A DNA stretch of 64,000 nt from Tubulanus polymorphus (lineage: Eukaryota; Nemertea; Palaeonemertea; Tubulaniformes; Tubulanidae). A program made the position numbers and the translations under genes. The notes below the pieces were generated by a model, which was given only the letters and a program-made list of their open reading frames with translations, did no database searches and was not told the DNA's origin. Of this stretch, positions 2,713 to 63,391 are shown piece by piece (the first letter of the stretch is position 1; every line of letters starts with the position of its first letter). The stretch covers positions 15,192,155 through 15,256,154 of the forward strand of contig NC_134033.1 in assembly GCF_964204645.1 (NCBI RefSeq), written 5' to 3'.

Positions 2713-34069
<31,357 letters not shown>

Positions 34070-38314: not shown

Positions 38315-38712
38315 TGAGGGGGCAAAATGACTGGTCTTAAGTTGTTAGATTGGTTATAGAACCAAAATTAGTTTAGACTGGTCTAAGTTGTTAGATTGGT
38401 CATGGAACCAAAATGAGCTTAGACTGGTCTAAGTTGTTAGATTGGTCATGGAACCAAAATGAGCTTAGACTGGTCTAAGTTGTTAGATTGGTTATGGAAC
38501 CAAAATGAGCTTAGACTGGTGTAAAGTTGTTAGATTGGCTATAGAACCAAAATGAGCTTAGACTGGTCTTAAGTTGTTAGATTGGTTATGGAACCAAATG
38601 AGCTTAGACTGGTCACAAGGTGTTAGATTGGTTATAGAACCAAATTGTGCTTAGACTGGTCTTAAGGTGTAAGATTGGTTGTAGAACCAAAATTAGCTTA
38701 GACTGGTCTTAG
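38315..38712. repeat. Tandem array of eight to nine about 47-base units
   Basis: aagttgttagattggttatg + gaaccaaaatgagcttagac + tggtct. The same family as 10880-11172 and the reverse of 61683-62310. Confidence 0.95.
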
Positions 38713-49100: not shown

Positions 49101-52100
49101 GTAAGAATTGATGAATTGATCATCTGTGTCCCGCTCTGAGCATCAGCTAAATTTCAATGCTGAATAAACTATCGCTCATAAATGAAAACAAAAACAACTT
49201 TAGTAAAAATTGTTATTTATTTCTGAATGCAAATTCCTCACTGAACAAATTGATGGATAATATTTCGAGATCAACCGATTATTAACGAAATTACGGACCA
49301 AAACGTCGCACGGAGAGCACGTGTGACAGACAGTAGAGTGAAAGTACGATGTCGACTCTGTTTGAATAAAACTCTGTGATTATTTCAGTAATTTCTGCAC
49401 GTCTCTCGACGCTCAGGACGCGTTTCAAGTATCGGAGAAAATCAAAAGAAAATGTAAGGGTTTAAAAAAATTTTTCGCTTGGTGCGGGCGTCCAAAATCG
49501 AAAACCCCTACCTACGCTCTTTTTAAAGGGATCTAGAGTTGCAAATAGTCAAATCTATTTCCAGTCTTGTTGATGAATATCATTGAGAGAAACCCACGAT
49601 ATCAATTGAAACAGTCAACTATGATTGTTTTTTTTCTATGTTTTGAGTGATAGAAAAACCAAAAACAATTGTTTAGATTGATATGTTATATATACCACGA
49701 TATCAATTTAAACAAGTATAATTATTTCTTTTCTTACGTTTCGGGTGGAATCCTTCCACTCATCAGAGTTTATTTGAAAATGTTGTTTTAATTCATATTG
49801 TAGCTTTCTCTTAATCAGAGTTGTTTCATTTTAACCCCCGCCCCCTCAGTTTTATGTGATTCTTTCCCTCCTGCTCTAAATTTTCCATAAAATTAAGCTC
49901 GTTTTTTGTAGTGGTCCGAAAAGGGAGGAGCAAAGATGCGGCTATTTTTTCGGAATTGAACCGGAAACTCGAATCTCTCGTAAGTCGAAAATTTTACTTC
50001 AAGAATTTTTTTCAAAAAATTGTCGGGTTTTCTTTTAAGATCTCATTAATTCATTACGATTATCTTTTCTGAAAAAAATGTTTCCTATGTCTGTCGGTTA
50101 ATTACTTTTAACATCAATACACCGTGATGCGGTGTACTAGCAAATACCATCACCGATCTATACACCGCATTGCAGTGTAGACGCGCTGAAAGGGTTAAAT
50201 CATGAGAAAGTTATGTTTCCTATTTTGTAGGATATTCTGCGCAACAGAGCCGGAGTTTTGTATTTGTTAATGTCACTTTGCGATGACAAATCAGCCGATA
50301 ACAAGGTTTAAATTCGATTCTTCAATTCTTCATTCTTCAATTTAAGAAAACCGCAGAAATCGAGGTTTTTTTTAAATTTCTGATATTTTATTATTTTTCA
50401 GTCGTCTGCTAGTTTCTCGTCGACGCTTCCGTCGTTTATTCTGCCGCAGACGCCGTTTCTTCCCGTGACCTCGACCCCGTTCAACCCTGCTCAGATCGCG
50501 GCGACCCCTCGGCTACCCGTATCGGCGACTCCGGGGGCGATGCCTCCTCAGACCCCGGGCGTCGGTTTCGTCACCTCGTCGACTCTGACTAAAAGCAGCG
50601 GATTCAGTAGTTTACATCAAACTGATCCGACTCCAGCCTCATTTCATCCCAGGTAAATTTCAAATGACAAAACCTGGATCCAGTTCCACAATACAGTTCC
50701 ACAGTTCAGGACCCAGTTCCACAGATCTGGTTTTGTAGTTTGATAGTTCTTGATCCAGTTCCACACTTCTTCACTTCCACAGATCAGGACCCAGTTCCAC
50801 AGTTGTAGATCCAGTTCCACACTTCTTCACTTCCACAGATCAGGATCCAGTTCCACAGTTGTAGATCCAGTTCCACAGTTTTAGATCCGGTTACACTGTT
50901 CTTGATACAGAGTTCCACAGTTGGTGAACAAGTTCCAAATTTGGCAACTTGAACTTAACCAACATATCTGAAGAACTGGATCCTGTGTTCAATTTCGTGT
51001 TCAAACTCTAAAAAACATATAATTTACCTTTTGTTGCAGCTCAAATCTCGGTGGAGCCGGTTACCATAGCGACGGAGCTACTAACTACGGCAGCGTTCAG
51101 AGATATCTACCCACGCCCTCTATTGGCGATACAATACATAACGATCGTCGCGGCAGTTCAAGTAGTTCAACGTCGAGTCGCAGTGTACGTCAGATCAGGG
51201 ATAACAGTGAGTACCATCATGTAGTGATTACATCTCCAGTGGTTTTAAACTAATTCTCCACATCTGCTATTCTACAACCCAGTTCGAATTTCATTATTCG
51301 GGGTCTCTAGACTCCTTGATTCGTTGAAAACTCTTTCTAAACAAAAAATATTTTTCAATATTCAAATATTTTTCTTGAATATCCTTGAATTTGAGCAAAA
51401 GTCCTTGAAAACTCCTTGAAATTAGAGAAATTGGCAATTAGAAAATTTTTAGGTTTTTGGCTAGTTATTATACACACAGATTCAATCCACCGAAATAAAT
51501 GGTTTACCGAGATAAACAGTAATGATTTAGGAGTCAACAGTAATTGGGATATGAAAGTGATGCAGGCACTTCTCTAAATTGAAAATTTTCTCTTTGGAAA
51601 TCTGCAATGACTGATCTGTAGGGACCCTGTTATTGTAAATAAACTAATTTTCACTACATTAACCATATTGTAGTGCCATCTGGTGTGCGCCGCCAGTATC
51701 TCAGTACCGCCAGTAACTCTAATTTGGTTTTGATTGTATATTTGTAGCGTCGATGGAGTTACCGCAGAATTTGTTACTCAGAGACATCATCTTCATTTTA
51801 CAAGGAATCGAAGGACAATACATTAAAATCGATCTGGCAAAAGACGGCTACAAAATCGAATCTAAAGTGAGCGCAATAATTACTCTACTTTTATGCGAAA
51901 GTTTGCCGGGATATAGCATAGCAAGGCTTTGCGGTAGATTTGTGGTTCATTTTCAATTTAAAATGCCTCAGGCGAAGTCACGAACACATGTGAAGTTTGG
52001 AGGATCAGTTTCTGAAAGTGTACTGAAAAAATGTCTGGTGTTTGTAGTTCATTTTCAATTGAAAATGTCTCAGGTGAAGCACTGAACACATGTGAAGTGT

Positions 52101-55100
52101 GGACGATCATCTTTTGAAAGTGAGCTGATAAATGTCTAATGTCAGGTCTTTGTTGTTCATTTTCAATTGAAAATGTCTCAGGCAAAGTCCTGAACACATG
52201 TGAAGTGTGAATGATCAGAAATTTGATATAATGGAGATAAAGTAAATGAAATGTCTTCATATAAGGTCTTAATCTCTCTTGAGACACAGCCCCCACTGAG
52301 GATATATCTCATGATTTAATCAGGGAACAATTTTTTTGTCAAAAGTATCAGGGAATCTTAAATGATTGTTATTATTTCAGGTTGGAATCCCGAAATCGCT
52401 GCGAGTTTCGATGTTAAAACTCGTCGAATGCGGTTGGCTCCACGATAAAGTGCGTAAATACACCGACTCTCGCGTCGCTGAGAAAACATTCGGACTCGTC
52501 GGGCAGAGTTTCTGCGCCGCGTTACAACAAGAGTTAACCGAGTATTATAATCTGATCGCTGTATTCGACGCTCAGGTAGAATAGAATATTCAATTCCATT
52601 GCGGAATAGAAATAGTGGATTGATAAGAATATTGAACAGAATGATCCAAGTTCCATCTGGAATTAAATCCTTAATCTGGAAAGTTGGGAAAACTGCAGGA
52701 ATTTTGAAATAGTAATTATATCTGGTTTGTGAATATTTGACAATTTTATCTATTTAATTTCTGGGAAAAATTTGGGAAATTCATTTTACACTTGATTATT
52801 CAGTATTTACTAATGGCAACTTAAGCAATATTTCTTGAAAATCACTGTAAATAATTAGTCACCATTAAAATGGTAAAATAGAAAATTCAATTCAAAGGCC
52901 ATTGTGGAATATTAGAATATACTGAACAGAATGATCCAGGTTCCATCTGGAATTTAATCTTGAAAATGGGGAAAACTGCAGGAATTTTGAAAAAGTTAAA
53001 TTCCCCGGTTTGGGATTAATTGACAATTTGATACAGGTTCTTTTAATCCAGGAAATTCATTTTACCACTTAACACAGGTTATATACTAATGGCAACCTTT
53101 CTCCTGCAAATATTGATGTTTCTTGATGGTATCTGTTCATTTCCATTTAGCAAAATTGAACTAAAATCTGGGAATTTATGTTGGGAATCATGCCTTTCAT
53201 TAAAGGTCCTTCATTATTTGCTTTTTATTTCGAATGTGTTTTATCGTTTTCGTTAAAAAGCTTCAACAAGATCAGGACATCGGAATAGTTCAAGATGGCT
53301 GCCATTTGACGATCAGGCGTTTGAGGATATGGTTACTGGAGCCGTTAGTTCGATTGAAAACGCTCGCCGCACTCGTCGATATCTGTAAAGGAAAGAAAGG
53401 TGGCGCTCTCGCATCGGCGGTCTACTCGTACACGCAGCACGGCGATTACGATATCAGGAATATGATTAAACACACTTTAACGCTGGTCGTGCAGCCGATA
53501 TTCGCGACCTTGACCCGATGGATTTACGATGGTGAACTCGACGATCAGTTTCAAGAGGTAAATGAATGATGTCTGAAAATGACTCGTGGGGGGAAGTCAG
53601 GCTTGGGGGGAAGTCAGGCTTGGGGTTGTGGTTGGAAAGTCCGGGAATTTGTAGAAAATAGTTTGAAATCAGAGAATAATCGGGGAATTTGTAAAAAAAA
53701 GTTAGAAATCAGAGAAAAGTTTCAGAAATTTGTTGAGATCATAGTAAGTGAATTCGAGGGCAGTTTGAGTCACCGCATGAATTGGAGGAGTGTGAAAAGT
53801 TTGAAATAGCCTCTTGCCCGGAAATCAGGCAAAAGTCACAGAATTTTCTTTTCTTTTAAATAGTCAGGGAACTTTGTAAGAACAAGTTGAAAATCAGAGA
53901 AAAGTTGGGGAATTCTGTAAGCAAAAAAAAATTAGAATCAGGGTTAAGTCGGGAACTGATTGTTGAGATCGCTAGATCATGCGTAAAATCTAACAGTTTC
54001 CTTCTATGTCTTACATATTTGTTTGTGTTAATATATTGGATTCTTAGCAGATCAAGTCGGGGAAAACAATGTGCATGTCAGGGAATAGTTAGGGAAAAGG
54101 CGATTTTGCCCTAGGATGATACTGTTGGTTGCGGCTGTTGGTCTGCTGAAGATGTTGATGTTGACAAAGTTTTGTCATTGTTGTTATATTTCAGTTTTTT
54201 GTCGCGTCCGATCCGAGCGTCCGAGAAGATCGATTGTGGCACGATAAATACGGTTTACGTAAATCAATGATTCCAAGTTTTATTCAAATGGAACAAGCGA
54301 GAAAGGTAATGAACACTATTAGAAGAGTACACCTGATGATGGCTAATAGTGTTTAGCCGAAACGTTGCTCAAAATAAATCCTCTTCTATTCAAGAATTTT
54401 TCATCTTTGACTGAATCATTGTCGGATTTCTCTCGTCAAGCTACGATCTTATTTACTGATAATAACCTTCGTGATGATATTTTTTTGCGAGTTTCTATCC
54501 GACCGCTGTATATCGAATATTTTTTCAGATTCTACTGATCGGTAAATCGATCAACTTCCTGCGAGCCGTCTGCCGAGATCGCGAACAGGTGAAAAACCGC
54601 GACGTGGTGAAACGTTCCGAGGCTAAGAACGTCGACGCGATTTTCAATCAGGATCTGAATCACACATTCCAGAACATGGTCGACATGGTTTACAAGGAAA
54701 CCAGTTCTCATCTGTTGACCGTGTTGCACTCGAAATATAAATTCATGGATCATCTGAAAGCGATGAGACGTTATTTACTGCTCGGTCAAGGGGATTTCAT
54801 ACGGCATCTCATGGATTTATTAGAGTAAGTTCCGGTGCGGATCCGGGTACCACTGTCAAGGGTAGCACAACTTATAAAAAGGGCACGATTGATAGAACAC
54901 TATATCCGTGTTGACGCGATGTAGAGAGAATCCCACAATTATAACGAAAAAGTCCGAAAATGTAACTTCGAGATAGTAGTTTATTTCAACATTTTGACTA
55001 TATCCTGAAGATGACTATTAGGATATAGTCGAAACGTTGAAATAAACTTCTATCTCGAAGTTACATTTTCTGACTTTTTCGTTATAATTGTGGGATTCTC

Positions 55101-58100
55101 TCTATATAAAAAGGGCATTTTGAAATTAAAAAGGGAATTTTGAAATTAAAAAGGGCATTTTGAAATTAAAAAGGGTATTTTGCTATATTAACACGTACCG
55201 GTAACCTAAAACTGGATTCAGTTTGATGTGGATTGTTTTTCGTCGCAGGGAAGATTTAGCGAAGCCGGCCGCCAGTTTGTATCTGCACAATTTAACCGGT
55301 ATCCTAGAGACGGCGATCCGAGCGACGAACGCTCAATTCGACGACGGCGACATCCTGAAACGTCTAGACGTCCGTCTGTTGGAGGTTTCCCCCGGCGATA
55401 CCGGCTGGGATGTATTCAGTCTCGACTACCACGTCGACGGTCCTATCAGCACAGTGAGTATTAAACTTAGTCATATCTTCTCCAAATTCGAATTCCTCTC
55501 CAAAAATTGATGAGCAAATGCAATGTTTTTTTTCGGTGCCAGTTTCGTTTCACCAATTTTTATTGTGCATTTATGAAAATGAAATAAGAAAAATATGAAA
55601 TTAAAAGGCCATGCTTGAGAAAGAAAAACTAGTGCGAAAGGATTTCCTTGAGTTGATGATCTACTTCACAATGTTTCGATTTCAGCCGCGATCACACGTA
55701 GATGATTTGGCCCGTGCCTAATAAGAGATCGCGTTCACACCCAAACCACCCACTCGATAAAAAACAACGCTTAAACAAAGCGAAGTGAGTCACTTCCGGG
55801 ACCAGTTGCAATTCAAACACAAAGATTTGGAATTAGGCTCGGGCCTGGTGTGACGCTCATGTGATCACGGCTTTTATCCCTAATAGTCTACTATATGAAT
55901 ACTTATAGAATCAGTACGAAGACCGGAGTGTATTTATATTTTCTAGGTAATTTACCTGGATTGTATTTGTATTTTCTAGGTATTTACCTGGGCCCGGTTT
56001 CATAGACTGATCAAAGTTATCCCTGGGGGTAAATCCTCAATCTGGGTGACAACCACCATAGTAACAATGAGAAACCATGGTTATAACTGACAAATTTCAA
56101 AATGTTCCTAGGGACTATCTTTCTTCCATATCTATGAAACCCAGCCCTGGAGTGTATTTGTATTTTCTAGGTATTCACTCCGGAATGTATTTGTATTTTC
56201 TAGGTATTTACCTGGAGTGTATTTGTATTTTCTAGGTATTTACCTGGAGTGTATTTGTATTTTCTAGGTATTCACTCCGGAATGTATTTGTATTTTCTAG
56301 GTATTCACTCCGGAATGTATTTGTATTTTCTAGGTATTTACCTGGAGTGTATTTGTATTTTCTAGGTATTCACTCCGGAATGTATTTGTATTTTCTAGGT
56401 ATTCACTCCAGAATGTATTTGTATTTTCTAGGTATTCACTCCAGAATGTATGATCATGTATTTGCGTGTGTTCAATTTTCTATGGAGAGCTAAGCGTATG
56501 GAGTATATATTAGCCGGTGTGTGGACCGGTCAAATGTCGAATAGTCGATTTCTGAGATTACTGCCAGGTCAGTATATTAAACCATTGTAGTCCCTGCATC
56601 CAGCAGAGTTACTTTCAGCTAAACTACTTTAAGTTAAGCTAAGTTACGTTCACCCTGTTTATTAGATAGGCTTATCATAAATCTTGAAATAAAACTGGTA
56701 TTAAGAATTGAGCTGCGATGAACAAAGATCAATCTATGCTTAATTTGCTTAAAGAGTTTAAACCATTTTTGTGCACTTTATCCTGGGGTTAAATGTACAA
56801 TCATGACTAGGATTAAAGTCCAGTTTAAAACCAGTTCAGTTCTGCTGCCGATCTGACTAAGATTTAAGACCACTTTTGACTTACCAGCTAGTCACGACTG
56901 TGCAACTGGCCTCTGATTCTTAAGGGTTTAGACCATAGTTGGAGATATATTTACTGTTCTCTCTCTCCCTCTCCCTCTCCCTCTCCCTCTCCCTCTCCCT
57001 CTCCCCCTCCCTCTCCCTCTCCCTCTCCCTCACCCTCACCCTCTCCCTCTCTCTCCTCTCCCTCTCCATGCTTTGAAACTTCATTGTATTAATTTATTTT
57101 TTTGCGTTCTGTTTACAGAAATGGCACCTGTTTTACATCAATGTCACATGATCACTAGTGAAATGGTTCATTTTATTCAACAAGTTCAATATTACATCAA
57201 TTTTGAGGTACGTACAGGAAATCCATGAATCACCTCATGAATCATTCGAACTGGGCACGAGTATCGTCGCGAGTTTTGATGCTATCAGGTTCGAATCCCT
57301 GCCGGGCGAGGATGCCTTGATAACTGATTAATTTGAGATACATTTACTTTCATGTTGGAATCGTATTGGAATTGTAACGTGTATTGTAGGTATTGTAATA
57401 GTAACATGTATTGTAGTTATTGGAATTTTAACATGTTACATGTAACTTAGGTATTGAAATTGTAACATGTATTGTAGGTATTGGAATTATAACATGTATT
57501 GTAGGTATTGGAATGTTCGTGGGATGAACTATTGAAGAACGTAAATGAAGCTGAAGATTTAGATTATATCATCGCGGCTCATCAAGTCTTCCTCGATACG
57601 ATCATCAATCGGTCGCTACTCGACGAGAAATCACGGGTTCGTATTGTTGTAATGTATCGTAGTAACCATTGAAATAACCGACAATATTTTGAAAAATTTC
57701 GTTAGTTCTTCGCTCGAGTTGGATTTTGTCGGACAAATTGAGCATGATATTCGAAAGATATTTCAACAAATATCTAAGTAAAATGGCCACTGACCTGGAA
57801 AAGTCAGGGAATCAGAAAAATCTAGAAAAAATCAGGGATAACTCTGGGAATTGGACAAATTTTACCAAAAACGTTGTTAACTCAGGGAATTTGGATAATG
57901 CTATTGATCACTTGTTTCTTTATCAATACGTGATTCAAAGAAAAATGAAGAATTGTAAAATTTGAATCCTAGAAAGTTCTCCGATGACAGGGAGAACTCA
58001 GGGAATTTGTAAATGGGTGAAAATTGACCACCCTGCTACAGGACTGTGTACTGTATGCTGCTGATTCTAAAATCTTAATTTCGTGTCGTTTCAGACAATA

Positions 58101-59500
58101 CTGACTCAGCTACGAGCGATATTCGATCTGATAATTCAGTTCCAACAAATTCAAGATGAAATGTATTTGTCCGGACAGAATGAACTCGACGCCAGGGAAC
58201 ATTATCAACATACGATGAAAATAAATACTGAACAGGTAACTGTGAGGTGTCATCTTAAAGCAAAAACGAAAGTAATTTTACCGAATCGGTTGAAGTCATT
58301 GAAAATGAGAAGGTTGTCATTAGAAAATACCTTGTTGAAGTCGTCGTGATTGAGAAAATCACCTTAAGTTGCTAATCATAATTTTACTGAGTCAAAATCA
58401 TCGAAAAAATGAGATGGTCCTCATAAGTTACTAGAGTAATCATAATTTTACTGAATGGTTGAATTCTTTGAGAATGAGAAGGTCATCATTAGTAACAACA
58501 GAATTAGATCATAATCATTATTTTACTGAATCACTGAAGTCATAGAGAATGAGAAGGTCATCATTGGTAACAAATCTTAATTTCCATTGAATGTTAAAAT
58601 CATCAAGAATTAGGTCATATTAGAAAATTATCATAATTTTACTGAATCATGGAAGTTATTGACAATGAGAAGATCACATTTAGTTACTAAGCATAATTTT
58701 ACTGAATCATTGAAGTCATTGAGCATGAGGTATGGTAATCATAATTTTACTGAATTGTCGAAGTCATTGAGAATGAGAAGGACTTATAATCATAATTTTA
58801 CTGAATCAATAAAGTCATTGAGAATGGGAAGGACTTATTATCATAATTTCATGGAATTGTTGAGGTGATTAAGAATGAGAATGTTTTTTCTATGTTACGT
58901 CTGCTAGGGCCAGTGGGGTGTAACAGAAGATGAAGAACAGATCGAACAGCAGCGACGTTTAGATTTCATACAAGCGGTAGTTTATTCAACGCGCGCTCGT
59001 CTACGAGTTCTAGGACAAACTTATCAGGTACGCGGGAAGAAACATCGATATTGATACAAATGAATCAAGGATGGTATTTTGCACTAGCTGATCCAACACC
59101 TCTCTTTCCTCCTGGGACCGGTTTTATAGACTGTTATCAACTTTAACCTAGGGCTAATGCAATTCATGATACCAGTCTATAAAACCGGGCCTTGTATATT
59201 ACCTATAAAAAAAAGGATATGTTTTTTGTTTTGTTGTTTCCATTTGGGAAAGTCTAAAAAATCATCCATCTGTCTGAAATACTCAAATTAGGCTTGTGTG
59301 ATTGTGTCTTAAATGTTTTATTTATGTCTGTTTATTTGTAGGACATGGTTCAGCAGTTTTTGTTGATGTTAAACCGTCACAACGACGTTTCGTTGCGATT
59401 CCTCAGTTTCCGTCAGGATTTCAACGAGTATTACAAACAAAAGGAACCGCGTATAAGAACGTCCTTGACCTATTCGCAGTCCGGACGACCGGTCGTGTGA
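49052..59500 (+). CDS. TUBGCP3: Gamma-tubulin complex component 3 (5' exon not found)
   Basis: Core subunit of the gamma-tubulin ring complex, which nucleates microtubules at centrosomes. Eighteen visible exons: 49052-49100, 49389-49453, 49912-49979, 50231-50305, 50402-50652, 51040-51206, 51748-51866, 52381-52575, 53261-53557, 54195-54305, 54529-54824, 55249-55453, 56432-56567, 57119-57207, 57505-57636, 58095-58235, 58908-59027, 59342-59500. They chain in phase to about 890 residues; human GCP3 has 907. Both conserved regions are present: GRIP1 with [47 protein letters not shown] and [21 protein letters not shown]2 with [24 protein letters not shown] and FRQDFNEYY. The Ser/Pro/Thr-rich part at 50402-51206 is the family's disordered linker. 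A possible polyadenylation signal is at 60043. It is divergent from PARL. Confidence 0.96.
49389..49453 (+). CDS. TUBGCP3 exon 2 of those visible
   Basis: Encodes [20 protein letters not shown], corresponding to NF-PT---DEF-VAEKIKK in vertebrates. Confidence 0.88.
49575..49760. repeat. aaacccacgatatcaattg element copies
   Basis: agagaaacccacgatatcaa + ttgaaac, then a reverse partner gtttagattgatatg and a further ccacgatatcaatttaaac. TUBGCP3 intron. Confidence 0.6.
49912..49979 (+). CDS. TUBGCP3 exon 3
   Basis: Encodes [20 protein letters not shown] and SL, matching the DAALFSELHRKL block. Confidence 0.9.
50107..50200. repeat. Partial ctgaaagggttaaa element
   Basis: tacaccgtgatgcggtgtac + tagcaaa, then tatacaccgcattgcagtgt + agacgcgctgaaagggtta. 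Right half of the element complete at 63601-63890. Confidence 0.75.
50231..50305 (+). CDS. TUBGCP3 exon 4
   Basis: Encodes [19 protein letters not shown], matching L-N-W--LYLLLSL. The donor, gtttaa, is non-consensus beyond GT. Confidence 0.85.
50402..50652 (+). CDS. TUBGCP3 exon 5, low-complexity linker
   Basis: Encodes a Ser/Thr/Pro-rich segment ([39 protein letters not shown]) with GC-rich codons unlike the flanking AT-rich introns. The family is poorly conserved here. Repeated S/T-P pairs are potential proline-directed phosphosites (inference). Confidence 0.87.
50672..50990. repeat. Irregular array of gatccagttccacag ends
   Basis: About ten copies of (g/a)atccagttccacagttgt or caggacccagttccacag, none with the paired right end except cttgaacttaaccaacat ... 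gaactggatcc at the close. Confidence 0.75.
51040..51206 (+). CDS. TUBGCP3 exon 6, Ser-rich linker
   Basis: Encodes [20 protein letters not shown], then [20 protein letters not shown]. The end corresponds to the SRNMTRSRR-type basic stretch before GRIP1. Confidence 0.87.
51748..51866 (+). CDS. TUBGCP3 exon 7, start of GRIP1
   Basis: Encodes [19 protein letters not shown] and KDGYKIESK, matching LVRDILYVFQGIDGK-IK. The donor is gtgagc. Confidence 0.94.
51935..52225 (+). repeat. Three tandem units, gaacacatgtgaagtgtgg family
   Basis: ttcattttcaattgaaaatg + tctcaggtgaagcactgaac + acatgtgaagtgtggacgat. TUBGCP3 intron before exon 52381. Confidence 0.85.
52381..52575 (+). CDS. TUBGCP3 exon 8
   Basis: Encodes [19 protein letters not shown] and [37 protein letters not shown] is near invariant in GCP3. 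Confidence 0.96.
52573..53110 (+). repeat. About 290-base direct duplication after the exon 8 donor
   Basis: ctgaacagaatgatcc + aggttccatctggaattaa + ggaaaactgcaggaattttg occurs twice (from about 52575 and from about 52867). The second copy has a gtaaaatagaaaattcaatt start resembling the donor's gtagaatagaatattcaatt. Confidence 0.8.
53261..53557 (+). CDS. TUBGCP3 exon 9
   Basis: Encodes [37 protein letters not shown] and [14 protein letters not shown]. The acceptor is weak (ttaaaaag after a T-rich tract), but the frame and the LQ junction match vertebrates. Confidence 0.94.
54195..54305 (+). CDS. TUBGCP3 exon 10
   Basis: Encodes [20 protein letters not shown] and [17 protein letters not shown], a near-exact family match. 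Confidence 0.96.
54529..54824 (+). CDS. TUBGCP3 exon 11
   Basis: Encodes [17 protein letters not shown], an intermediate variable stretch, then [20 protein letters not shown] and MDLL. Confidence 0.96.
54922..55106. repeat. Near-perfect palindromic element with tagagagaatcccacaat arms
   Basis: Left arm from tagagagaatcccacaatta through taacgaaaaagtccgaaaat and gtaacttcgagatag mirrors the right arm ending ttataattgtgggattctct + cta. Arms are about 80 bases, with a centre of cctgaagatgactattagga. TUBGCP3 intron between exons 54824 and 55249. Confidence 0.93.
55249..55453 (+). CDS. TUBGCP3 exon 12
   Basis: Encodes [20 protein letters not shown] and [20 protein letters not shown], then VDGPIST. 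This is the most conserved GRIP core. Confidence 0.97.
55927..56431 (+). repeat. Tandem array of ten decoy 3' splice sites before TUBGCP3 exon 13
   Basis: Ten units of 31-34 bases, each atgtatttgtattttctag + gtattcactccgga or the variant gtatttacctggag. The eleventh copy is the real acceptor plus exon start (tattttctag|GTATTCACTCCAGAATGTATG). An element of the gggcccggtttcatag family is inserted at 55990-56147 between units 2 and 3. Confidence 0.97.
55990..56147. repeat. MITE-like gggcccggtttcatag element inserted in the array
   Basis: Full relative of 30752-30909, with a short internal deletion near the left end (catagactgatcaaag). Confidence 0.88.
56432..56567 (+). CDS. TUBGCP3 exon 13, behind a decoy-acceptor array
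   Basis: Encodes [20 protein letters not shown] and [20 protein letters not shown], matching the family's [22 protein letters not shown]. Its acceptor junction is the last copy of a tandem array of the same junction. Confidence 0.96.
56790..56920. repeat. Diverged gccagttgcacagtcgtg element
   Basis: tacaatcatgactaggatta at left, gactaagatttaagaccact + tttgac within, and gtcacgactgtgcaactggc at right. Confidence 0.6.
56958..57066 (+). repeat. (CTCTCC)n hexamer tract
   Basis: Almost pure C/T hexamers directly before exon 57119; it extends the pyrimidine tract of that intron. Confidence 0.95.
57119..57207 (+). CDS. TUBGCP3 exon 14
   Basis: Encodes [20 protein letters not shown] then QVQYYINFE, matching [25 protein letters not shown]. 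Confidence 0.96.
57255..57312 (+). repeat. tRNA-derived SINE fragment
   Basis: gtatcgtcgcgagttttgat + gctatcaggttcgaatccct + gccgggcgaggatgcc. Relative of the 42.7-43.0 kb pair. Confidence 0.55.
57363..57504 (+). repeat. Tandem array copied from the TUBGCP3 exon 15 acceptor junction
   Basis: Five units of 27-34 bases: gtattggaattgtaacatgt + attgtag. The sixth copy is the real acceptor and exon start (acatgtattgtag|GTATTGGAATGTTCG). Confidence 0.95.
57505..57636 (+). CDS. TUBGCP3 exon 15, behind a second junction array
   Basis: Encodes [20 protein letters not shown] and [20 protein letters not shown]. The acceptor region is repeated in tandem upstream. Confidence 0.96.
58095..58235 (+). CDS. 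TUBGCP3 exon 16
   Basis: Encodes [35 protein letters not shown] and a hydrophilic end. It matches LLNQLRA-FD-IIE-QN-QD--Y. Confidence 0.93.
58240..58875 (+). repeat. Diverged tandem array, about 58-base unit
   Basis: About ten units of cataattttactgaatcatt + gaagtcattgagaatgagaa + ggtcatcattagtaac. Fills the intron between exons 58235 and 58908; the final unit runs into the pyrimidine tract. Confidence 0.9.
58908..59027 (+). CDS. TUBGCP3 exon 17
   Basis: Encodes [20 protein letters not shown] then [17 protein letters not shown], matching GQWGVTA-EEE. Confidence 0.94.
59113..59196. repeat. Short gggaccggttttatagactg hairpin
   Basis: gggaccggttttatagactg pairs with ccagtctataaaaccgggcc around a short centre. 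A minimal relative of the gggcccggtttcatag family. Confidence 0.8.
59342..59500 (+). CDS. TUBGCP3 exon 18, terminal
   Basis: Encodes [40 protein letters not shown] and ends SGRPVV, TGA. The end aligns with the FRLDFNEHYK-REPRLR-S tail of GCP3. Confidence 0.96.

Positions 59501-61342: not shown

Positions 61343-63391
<2,049 letters not shown>

Follow-up and report, generated by a model that had tools for sequence, protein, structure and literature searches.

An intron of the gene for gamma-tubulin complex component 3 (GCP3/TUBGCP3) ends in a tandem array whose unit contains the 3' splice site itself together with the beginning of the following exon, and ten decoy acceptors thereby precede the true acceptor at position 56432 of the window (the whole 64 kb stretch of DNA analysed here, to whose numbering coordinates refer unless a contig is named). 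Minisatellite-like duplications of intron-exon boundaries have been described as "mirages" in the amphioxus Adh3 gene and in the amphioxus globin genes BflGb6 and BflGb9 (PMC3087553). By its architecture, its pattern of turnover and its recurrence at acceptors the GCP3 array is a mirage minisatellite as in amphioxus, and we refer to it as mirage 1. Very probably slippage duplicated the edge of an exon here, in a genome rich in minisatellites, and the result is tolerated rather than selected.

The gene was identified from 240 amino acids translated from four joined exons, which match solved GCP3 chains with E values of 2.7e-104 to 6.3e-103. The true junction behind mirage 1, GPIST|VFTPEC, aligns without gaps to GPIAT|VFTREC (GPIAT|VFTRECMSHYLRVF) of those chains. 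The exon was numbered 13 in the first-pass annotation; among the 15 GCP3 acceptors listed, 56432 comes tenth, or 11th when an exon near 53.26 kb is counted, and more GCP3 exons may lie 5' of those listed. The introns flanking its exon measure 978 nt (5') and 551 nt (3'). Within the searched genome (267.8 Mb in 77 contigs) all four matches of the GCP3 protein are exons of the window's gene, and no paralogue, processed copy or retrocopy with a spliced junction was seen. The genes are animal-like; there was no COX1 match, and a GFP-family search gave none either, nor did its control. No Rfam RNA was found at gathering score within 55400-57300. A run of the hexamer CTCTCC occupies 56958-57067, just 5' of the GCP3 exon at 57119.

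The unit of mirage 1 takes in 13 nt from the end of the GCP3 intron and 20 nt from the start of the exon that follows. The array holds 11 CTAG|GTA sites, the ten decoys and the true one, spaced by 32 or 33 nt and only across an inserted MITE by 191 nt (Table 1). The first-pass annotation of this DNA had described ten tandem copies of a 3' splice site in front of the exon, a unit made of the intron end with its ctag and the first exon bases (VFTPE), and a MITE within the array; the site positions, the alignment of the junction and the CTG found on both sides of the element bear out all of this. Units fall into two classes, A of 33 nt (TTCACTCCGGAATG; GTATTCACTCCGGAATGTATTTGTATTTTCTAG) and B of 32 nt (TTTACCTGGAGTG; GTATTTACCTGGAGTGTATTTGTATTTTCTAG), whose order from 5' to 3' is B' B (MITE) A B B A A B A A', followed by the exon. 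Inner A and inner B units are identical, and the leftmost unit carries private changes, which indicates concerted evolution inside the array and divergence at its edges. Each edge resembles its neighbours: the exon-nearest unit, A', has CCAGAATG (CCAG) in common with the exon where the other A units read CCGGAATG, and the leftmost partial unit has GGAGTG, the same as the B units.

Table 1. Coordinates of the GCP3 arrays, their exons and boundary arrays at other loci.
Feature	Position	Strand	Description
GCP3 exon upstream of mirage 1	55249..55453	+	ends GPIST; donor ACA|GTGAGT; intron starts at 55454
Mirage 1, whole array	55925..56451	+	leftmost partial unit, ten decoy acceptors, MITE, true acceptor, first 20 nt of exon
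Decoys, first bases on exon side	55947, 55980, 56171, 56204, 56236, 56268, 56301, 56334, 56366, 56399	+	
Decoy unit 1 and start of unit 2, left of MITE	55947..55990	+	unit 1 with private changes GTAATTTACC, preceded by TTTATATTTTC
MITE, 156 bp	55991..56146	+	inverted ends GGCCCGGTTTCATAGA / TCTATGAAACCCAGCC; target duplication CTG (CWG class); dispersed family
Eight decoy units right of MITE	56171..56431	+	56171 A, 56204 B, 56236 B, 56268 A, 56301 A, 56334 B, 56366 A, 56399 A'
True GCP3 exon behind mirage 1	56432..56567	+	136 nt; donor CAG|GTCAGT
Mirage 2	57363..57514	+	TRF 27-bp unit GTATTGGAATTGTAACATGTATTGTAG; last copy reaches 10 nt into the GCP3 exon at 57505
GCP3 exon behind mirage 2	57505..57636	+	junction TGTAG|GTATTGGAATGTTCG, reads VLECSW
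Transketolase (L055, 3857-4011)	C3:25370826		25-bp unit TGTATTTTCTAG|TTACCGTGTATTC over acceptor; seven TTTTCTAG sites, 6 decoys
Cytochrome b561 (L056, 4045-4371)	C10:552550		29-bp unit ending GACTATAG|GAATGTT, over acceptor
IFT140 first coding exon (L088, 207-312)	C4:23417911		32-bp array over acceptor; 2 decoys; start codon inside unit
PG_binding_1 exon (L092)	C9:12093990-12094085		22-bp array over acceptor, TATTTTACAG|ACTTACCTCTCG; five TTTTACAG sites, 4 decoys
L057, 1708-2408	C6:22208		27 TTTTACAG sites, followed by GTTGTTG; precedes 133-aa open frame

Genome-wide, the 21-mer TGTATTTGTATTTTCTAGGTA has ten exact matches and one with a single mismatch, all inside mirage 1, and ten others with two mismatches. 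The exact and single-mismatch matches, all in the array, and TRF scores of 501-547 exclude a chance origin. When the array was searched against the genome DNA with the MITE left out and the best candidates were scored, we found the array itself, no close copy of the unit elsewhere, and two weak matches of 68 and 69% identity; both of the latter are themselves tandem arrays running into acceptors, those of transketolase and cytochrome b561 (see below). A search with the whole region (best 40 of 676 candidates scored) listed 41 matches, all of which, apart from the region's own locus, fall on the MITE part, and the region thus looks repetitive genome-wide only because of the MITE. Cutting out the element and one CTG restores an exact 32-nt B unit, letter for letter. 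Since the MITE sits inside an otherwise perfect unit, the array was already built when the element arrived. Seven of eight copies of the MITE family examined have an identical CWG on both sides, and the eighth has CTG and CAG; given the 3-bp CWG target duplication and the inverted ends, we take the element to be of the PIF/Harbinger type.

The claim that choice of any decoy ends translation holds in its main part, as a premature stop follows from all ten, 74-588 nt before the exon end. The single ten-residue peptide attributed to them does not hold throughout: it is read from only five decoys (56171, 56268, 56301, 56366 and 56399), and the other five read 10 (a different 10-letter peptide), 36, 53, 85 and 39 amino acids before their stops, which thus have mixed reasons. 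In the 33-nt units the stop is present by construction, because the TAG of the phase-0 acceptor is itself in frame. On the full acceptor matrix every decoy equals the true site at 14.5, and the true acceptor, at 10.9 by leave-one-out in a range of -2.8 to 12.8 for the 15 GCP3 acceptors, is among the gene's better ones. A branch-site-like TTCAC or TTTAC is present in most units 26-27 nt before the next acceptor, and YTNAY occurs 26-27 nt upstream of the true site and of eight of the ten decoys (55947 and 56171 are without it). YTNAY is a weak mark, since it is found within 12-50 nt at nine of the 15 listed GCP3 acceptors, the true one included, and the idea that all arrays obey one branch-site rule was given up because the motif is too frequent. 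The acceptor itself holds nothing that separates the last site from the decoys.

The difference lies in what follows: behind the last site comes the complete exon, whose donor is reached after 136 nt, and exons begun at decoys would span 169-621 nt. The array would be removed as intron if exon definition picks the acceptor nearest the downstream donor, the sole one with a full exon behind it, and the lengths of the exon and of its two flanking introns favour the last acceptor under exon definition. This acceptor may be able to stand alone, as most units supply a branch-site-like motif 26-27 nt upstream of the next acceptor. Competing 3' sites separated by at least 20 nt are reported to be defined, as a rule, when they are first recognised and to have their own branch points, and the upstream one is preferred overall, with the preference reduced by long flanking introns (PMC9225289); because long introns, in that account, merely reduce the preference for upstream sites, use of the last site is not assured. 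In amphioxus, RT-PCR suggested that mirages leave regular splicing undisturbed (PMC3087553). We infer that the last acceptor is mainly used and that errors are passed to NMD, for which transcripts spliced to a decoy would qualify, since their stops lie 74 nt or more ahead of the end of the exon. NMD of the mistakes, combined with exon definition, would allow the array to be tolerated without being selected.

A second array of the same build, mirage 2, lies two exons further on in GCP3, within an intron of 297 nt, and is more diverged than mirage 1. Its TAG|GTA decoys at 57390, 57451 and 57478 read VL, VLKL and VLEL, respectively, each followed directly by a stop. In an intron of this length intron definition could favour a decoy. 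A genome search with mirage 2, with the best candidates scored, matched its own locus only. Neither this array nor the recurrence of such arrays at other genes figured in the first-pass annotation.

Besides mirages 1 and 2 we viewed 22 array loci, of which four have homology-supported exons, five an open frame only and 13 no recognisable exon. The loci were partly picked by eye from among the matches listed, so that these counts speak to recurrence and give no rate. At the transketolase locus the junction reads KA(AG|T)YRVFCIIGDGE; the upstream exon ends AAAGCCAG|GTATGT, and the joined reading, KASYRVFCIIGDGE, matches solved transketolases from YRV onward. The cytochrome b561 junction is FLYAD(G|GA)MLVYRVF, with an upstream donor GCGGACG|GTGAGT and a joined reading ADGMLVYRVF. 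Pattern searches pointed to the IFT140 and PG_binding_1 arrays. In the IFT140 array a decoy start codon reads MAVYFVDIMI and then a stop. The PG_binding_1 exon is a marginal Pfam match (23.3 against a cut-off of 23) with no PDB match at E up to 1, and is MMP-like in our own reading. Cases with an open frame only are L057, L085, L087, L096 and L098. No Pfam match above cut-off was obtained for the frames of the first three, and the last two are candidates for the donor side, L098 with a unit containing ...NIGE|GTGAGT and L096 with a 38-nt candidate micro-exon ending CATCAG|GTGAGT. Reverse-strand loci viewed were L064, L065, L071 and L077; L065 (C7:20802633) has a 23-codon open frame in the right orientation behind its last site, which is too short to count and leaves it among the 13 loci without an exon. 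A general excess of acceptor-like triplets was rejected, since pattern counts (raw matches on both strands) were mostly not above those of the reversed pattern: 149 versus 149 for TTTTNCAG, 198 versus 350 for TTTTNTAG, 30 versus 107 for AGGTAAGT and 33 versus 266 for AGGTGAGT. The sole pattern above its control was TTTTCTAG (26 versus 2), with supported exons at just two of its six loci.

How many boundary-spanning duplications might be expected from mutation alone was estimated for 49912-59500 (9588 bases), a region with nine TRF arrays when the pieces of mirage 1 are taken as one (two of the others overlap each other) and with 31 boundaries, namely the 15 donors and 15 acceptors listed plus one unlisted acceptor. 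The units of the nine arrays sum to 347 nt, and by this rough estimate about 1.12 boundary-spanning duplications are expected without selection, compared to two seen. For the 16 acceptors alone the figures are 0.58 expected and two seen, which leaves room for an acceptor bias. A neutral count near one, together with the recurrence at other genes, makes a mutational explanation sufficient, and no function is needed. In such an explanation, before the array expanded, the junction would have been flanked by GGAGTGTAT, at what is the left edge, and by AGAATGTAT, in the exon, at a distance of 33 nt; these short direct repeats could have given rise to the first duplication by slippage or unequal exchange, and the MITE would have inserted after the array had expanded.

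The array might instead be functional, with decoys that divert some of the splicing into NMD and with a copy number that sets GCP3 output. Such a poison-acceptor array is favoured by ten decoys that score like one of the better GCP3 acceptors, eight of them with YTNAY at 26-27 nt, by premature stops from every decoy, none of them nearer than 74 nt to the end of the exon, and by the presence of two such arrays in GCP3; but the stop of the 33-nt units is built in, comparable arrays stand before unrelated genes and the neutral count suffices, and we consider this function distinctly unlikely. Its more general form, in which acceptor arrays are evolvable rheostats whose decoy copy number sets the NMD-bound share and whose minisatellite mutation tunes gene output, strikes us as about equally unlikely. 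Recursive splicing, in which decoys act as zero-length exons that each rebuild a donor, had been suggested by the layout of the sites. Recursive sites, or ratchet points, juxtapose AG and GT, and AG|GT is indeed present in all ten decoys, but the donor halves are weak in nine of them. On a donor matrix built from 15 GCP3 donors the five A sites (TAG|GTATTC) score 0.6, a value reached by 42.9% of the + strand GTs of the window, and the four B sites (TAG|GTATTT) score 2.7, with 21.4% as high; the rebuilt donors reach 1.1 and 3.1, and the 15 listed donors range from 0.6 to 10.3 by leave-one-out. The most distal decoy, 55947 (TAG|GTAATT), scores 5.5 (5.3% of GTs as high; 5.9 rebuilt), equals an average GCP3 donor and is the only fair candidate for a usable 5' site fused to a 3' site. 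Unlike ratchet points, moreover, the array lies in a short intron of just 978 nt and advances by steps of only 33 nt, and a step of that size is too short for a spliceable intron. Recursive use of the array is therefore very unlikely.

Two further readings fare worse still. The region is minisatellite-rich (the 64 kb of the window contain 31 arrays that do not overlap and have a period of at least 12), and a dispersed satellite could have landed beside the exon and merely resemble it. The first-pass annotation had allowed for a genome-wide repeat found away from this exon; none was found among the best candidates scored, the 21-mer is exact only here, and part of the unit is coding sequence that runs on into the conserved exon, all of which renders a chance landing extremely improbable. 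It is just as hard to believe that the array or its copy number comes from misassembly. Repeats are prone to this, and one aberrantly assembled mirage is noted in PMC3087553, but distinct unit variants in mixed order, the inserted MITE, whose target duplication is clean, and similar arrays at several genes argue against it.

In the literature searched, the nearest reports are those on mirages in amphioxus, on potato RdRp and on internal tandem repeats of human genes. Mirage 1 resembles the amphioxus arrays (PMC3087553) in having a tandem unit made of intron end and exon start, of a length of the same order (the Adh3 units, as cited there, are 10-72 bp), and in being homogenised inside and diverged at its edges, much as the amphioxus cluster boundaries escape homogenisation. 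The arrays differ from those described there in affecting other genes, in a MITE that interrupts the ten decoy copies and in the occurrence of two arrays in one gene. Amphioxus mirages can affect both acceptor and donor sides; here the acceptor cases include homology-supported exons, and the donor cases are two open-frame candidates. In the Rogers model of intron gain by tandem duplication, as presented for potato RdRp (PMC4974935), a duplication that crosses the boundary likewise copies the AG, the pyrimidine tract and the exon start. The potato case involves one larger duplicate rather than ten small copies, and the GCP3 array has mostly weak donor halves and shows no new intron. Human internal tandem repeats in segmental duplications (PMC2812944) also have minisatellite units of about 30 bp at exon-intron boundaries, where they can change splicing. 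These are variable, lie in recent paralogs and have transcript evidence, whereas the GCP3 array is in a conserved, apparently single-copy gene. The GCP3 array is a real and instructive instance of the boundary-duplication accident already described in amphioxus, and probably not a dedicated machine. Its ten acceptors of equal score, most with the same branch-site-like spacing, constitute a natural competition test of 3' site choice. Several such arrays in one genome would make it possible to measure acceptor choice, the load on NMD and the gain of introns through boundary duplication side by side. Should the host lie outside the cephalochordates, these arrays also widen the range of organisms with mirages, within the literature searched.

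The arrays of the window were also scanned by script for acceptors. Mirage 1 and six others were flagged and mirage 2 was missed, which means that the scan is not sensitive; among the six others no exon was found at 4452-4767, and none that is clear at the five reverse-strand arrays. Arrays of 46-47 bp (GACTGGTCTTAAGTTGTTAGATTGGTTATAGAACCAAAATGAGCTTA) at 10890-11169, 38329-38711 and, reversed, 61675-62312 represent a dispersed tandem repeat.
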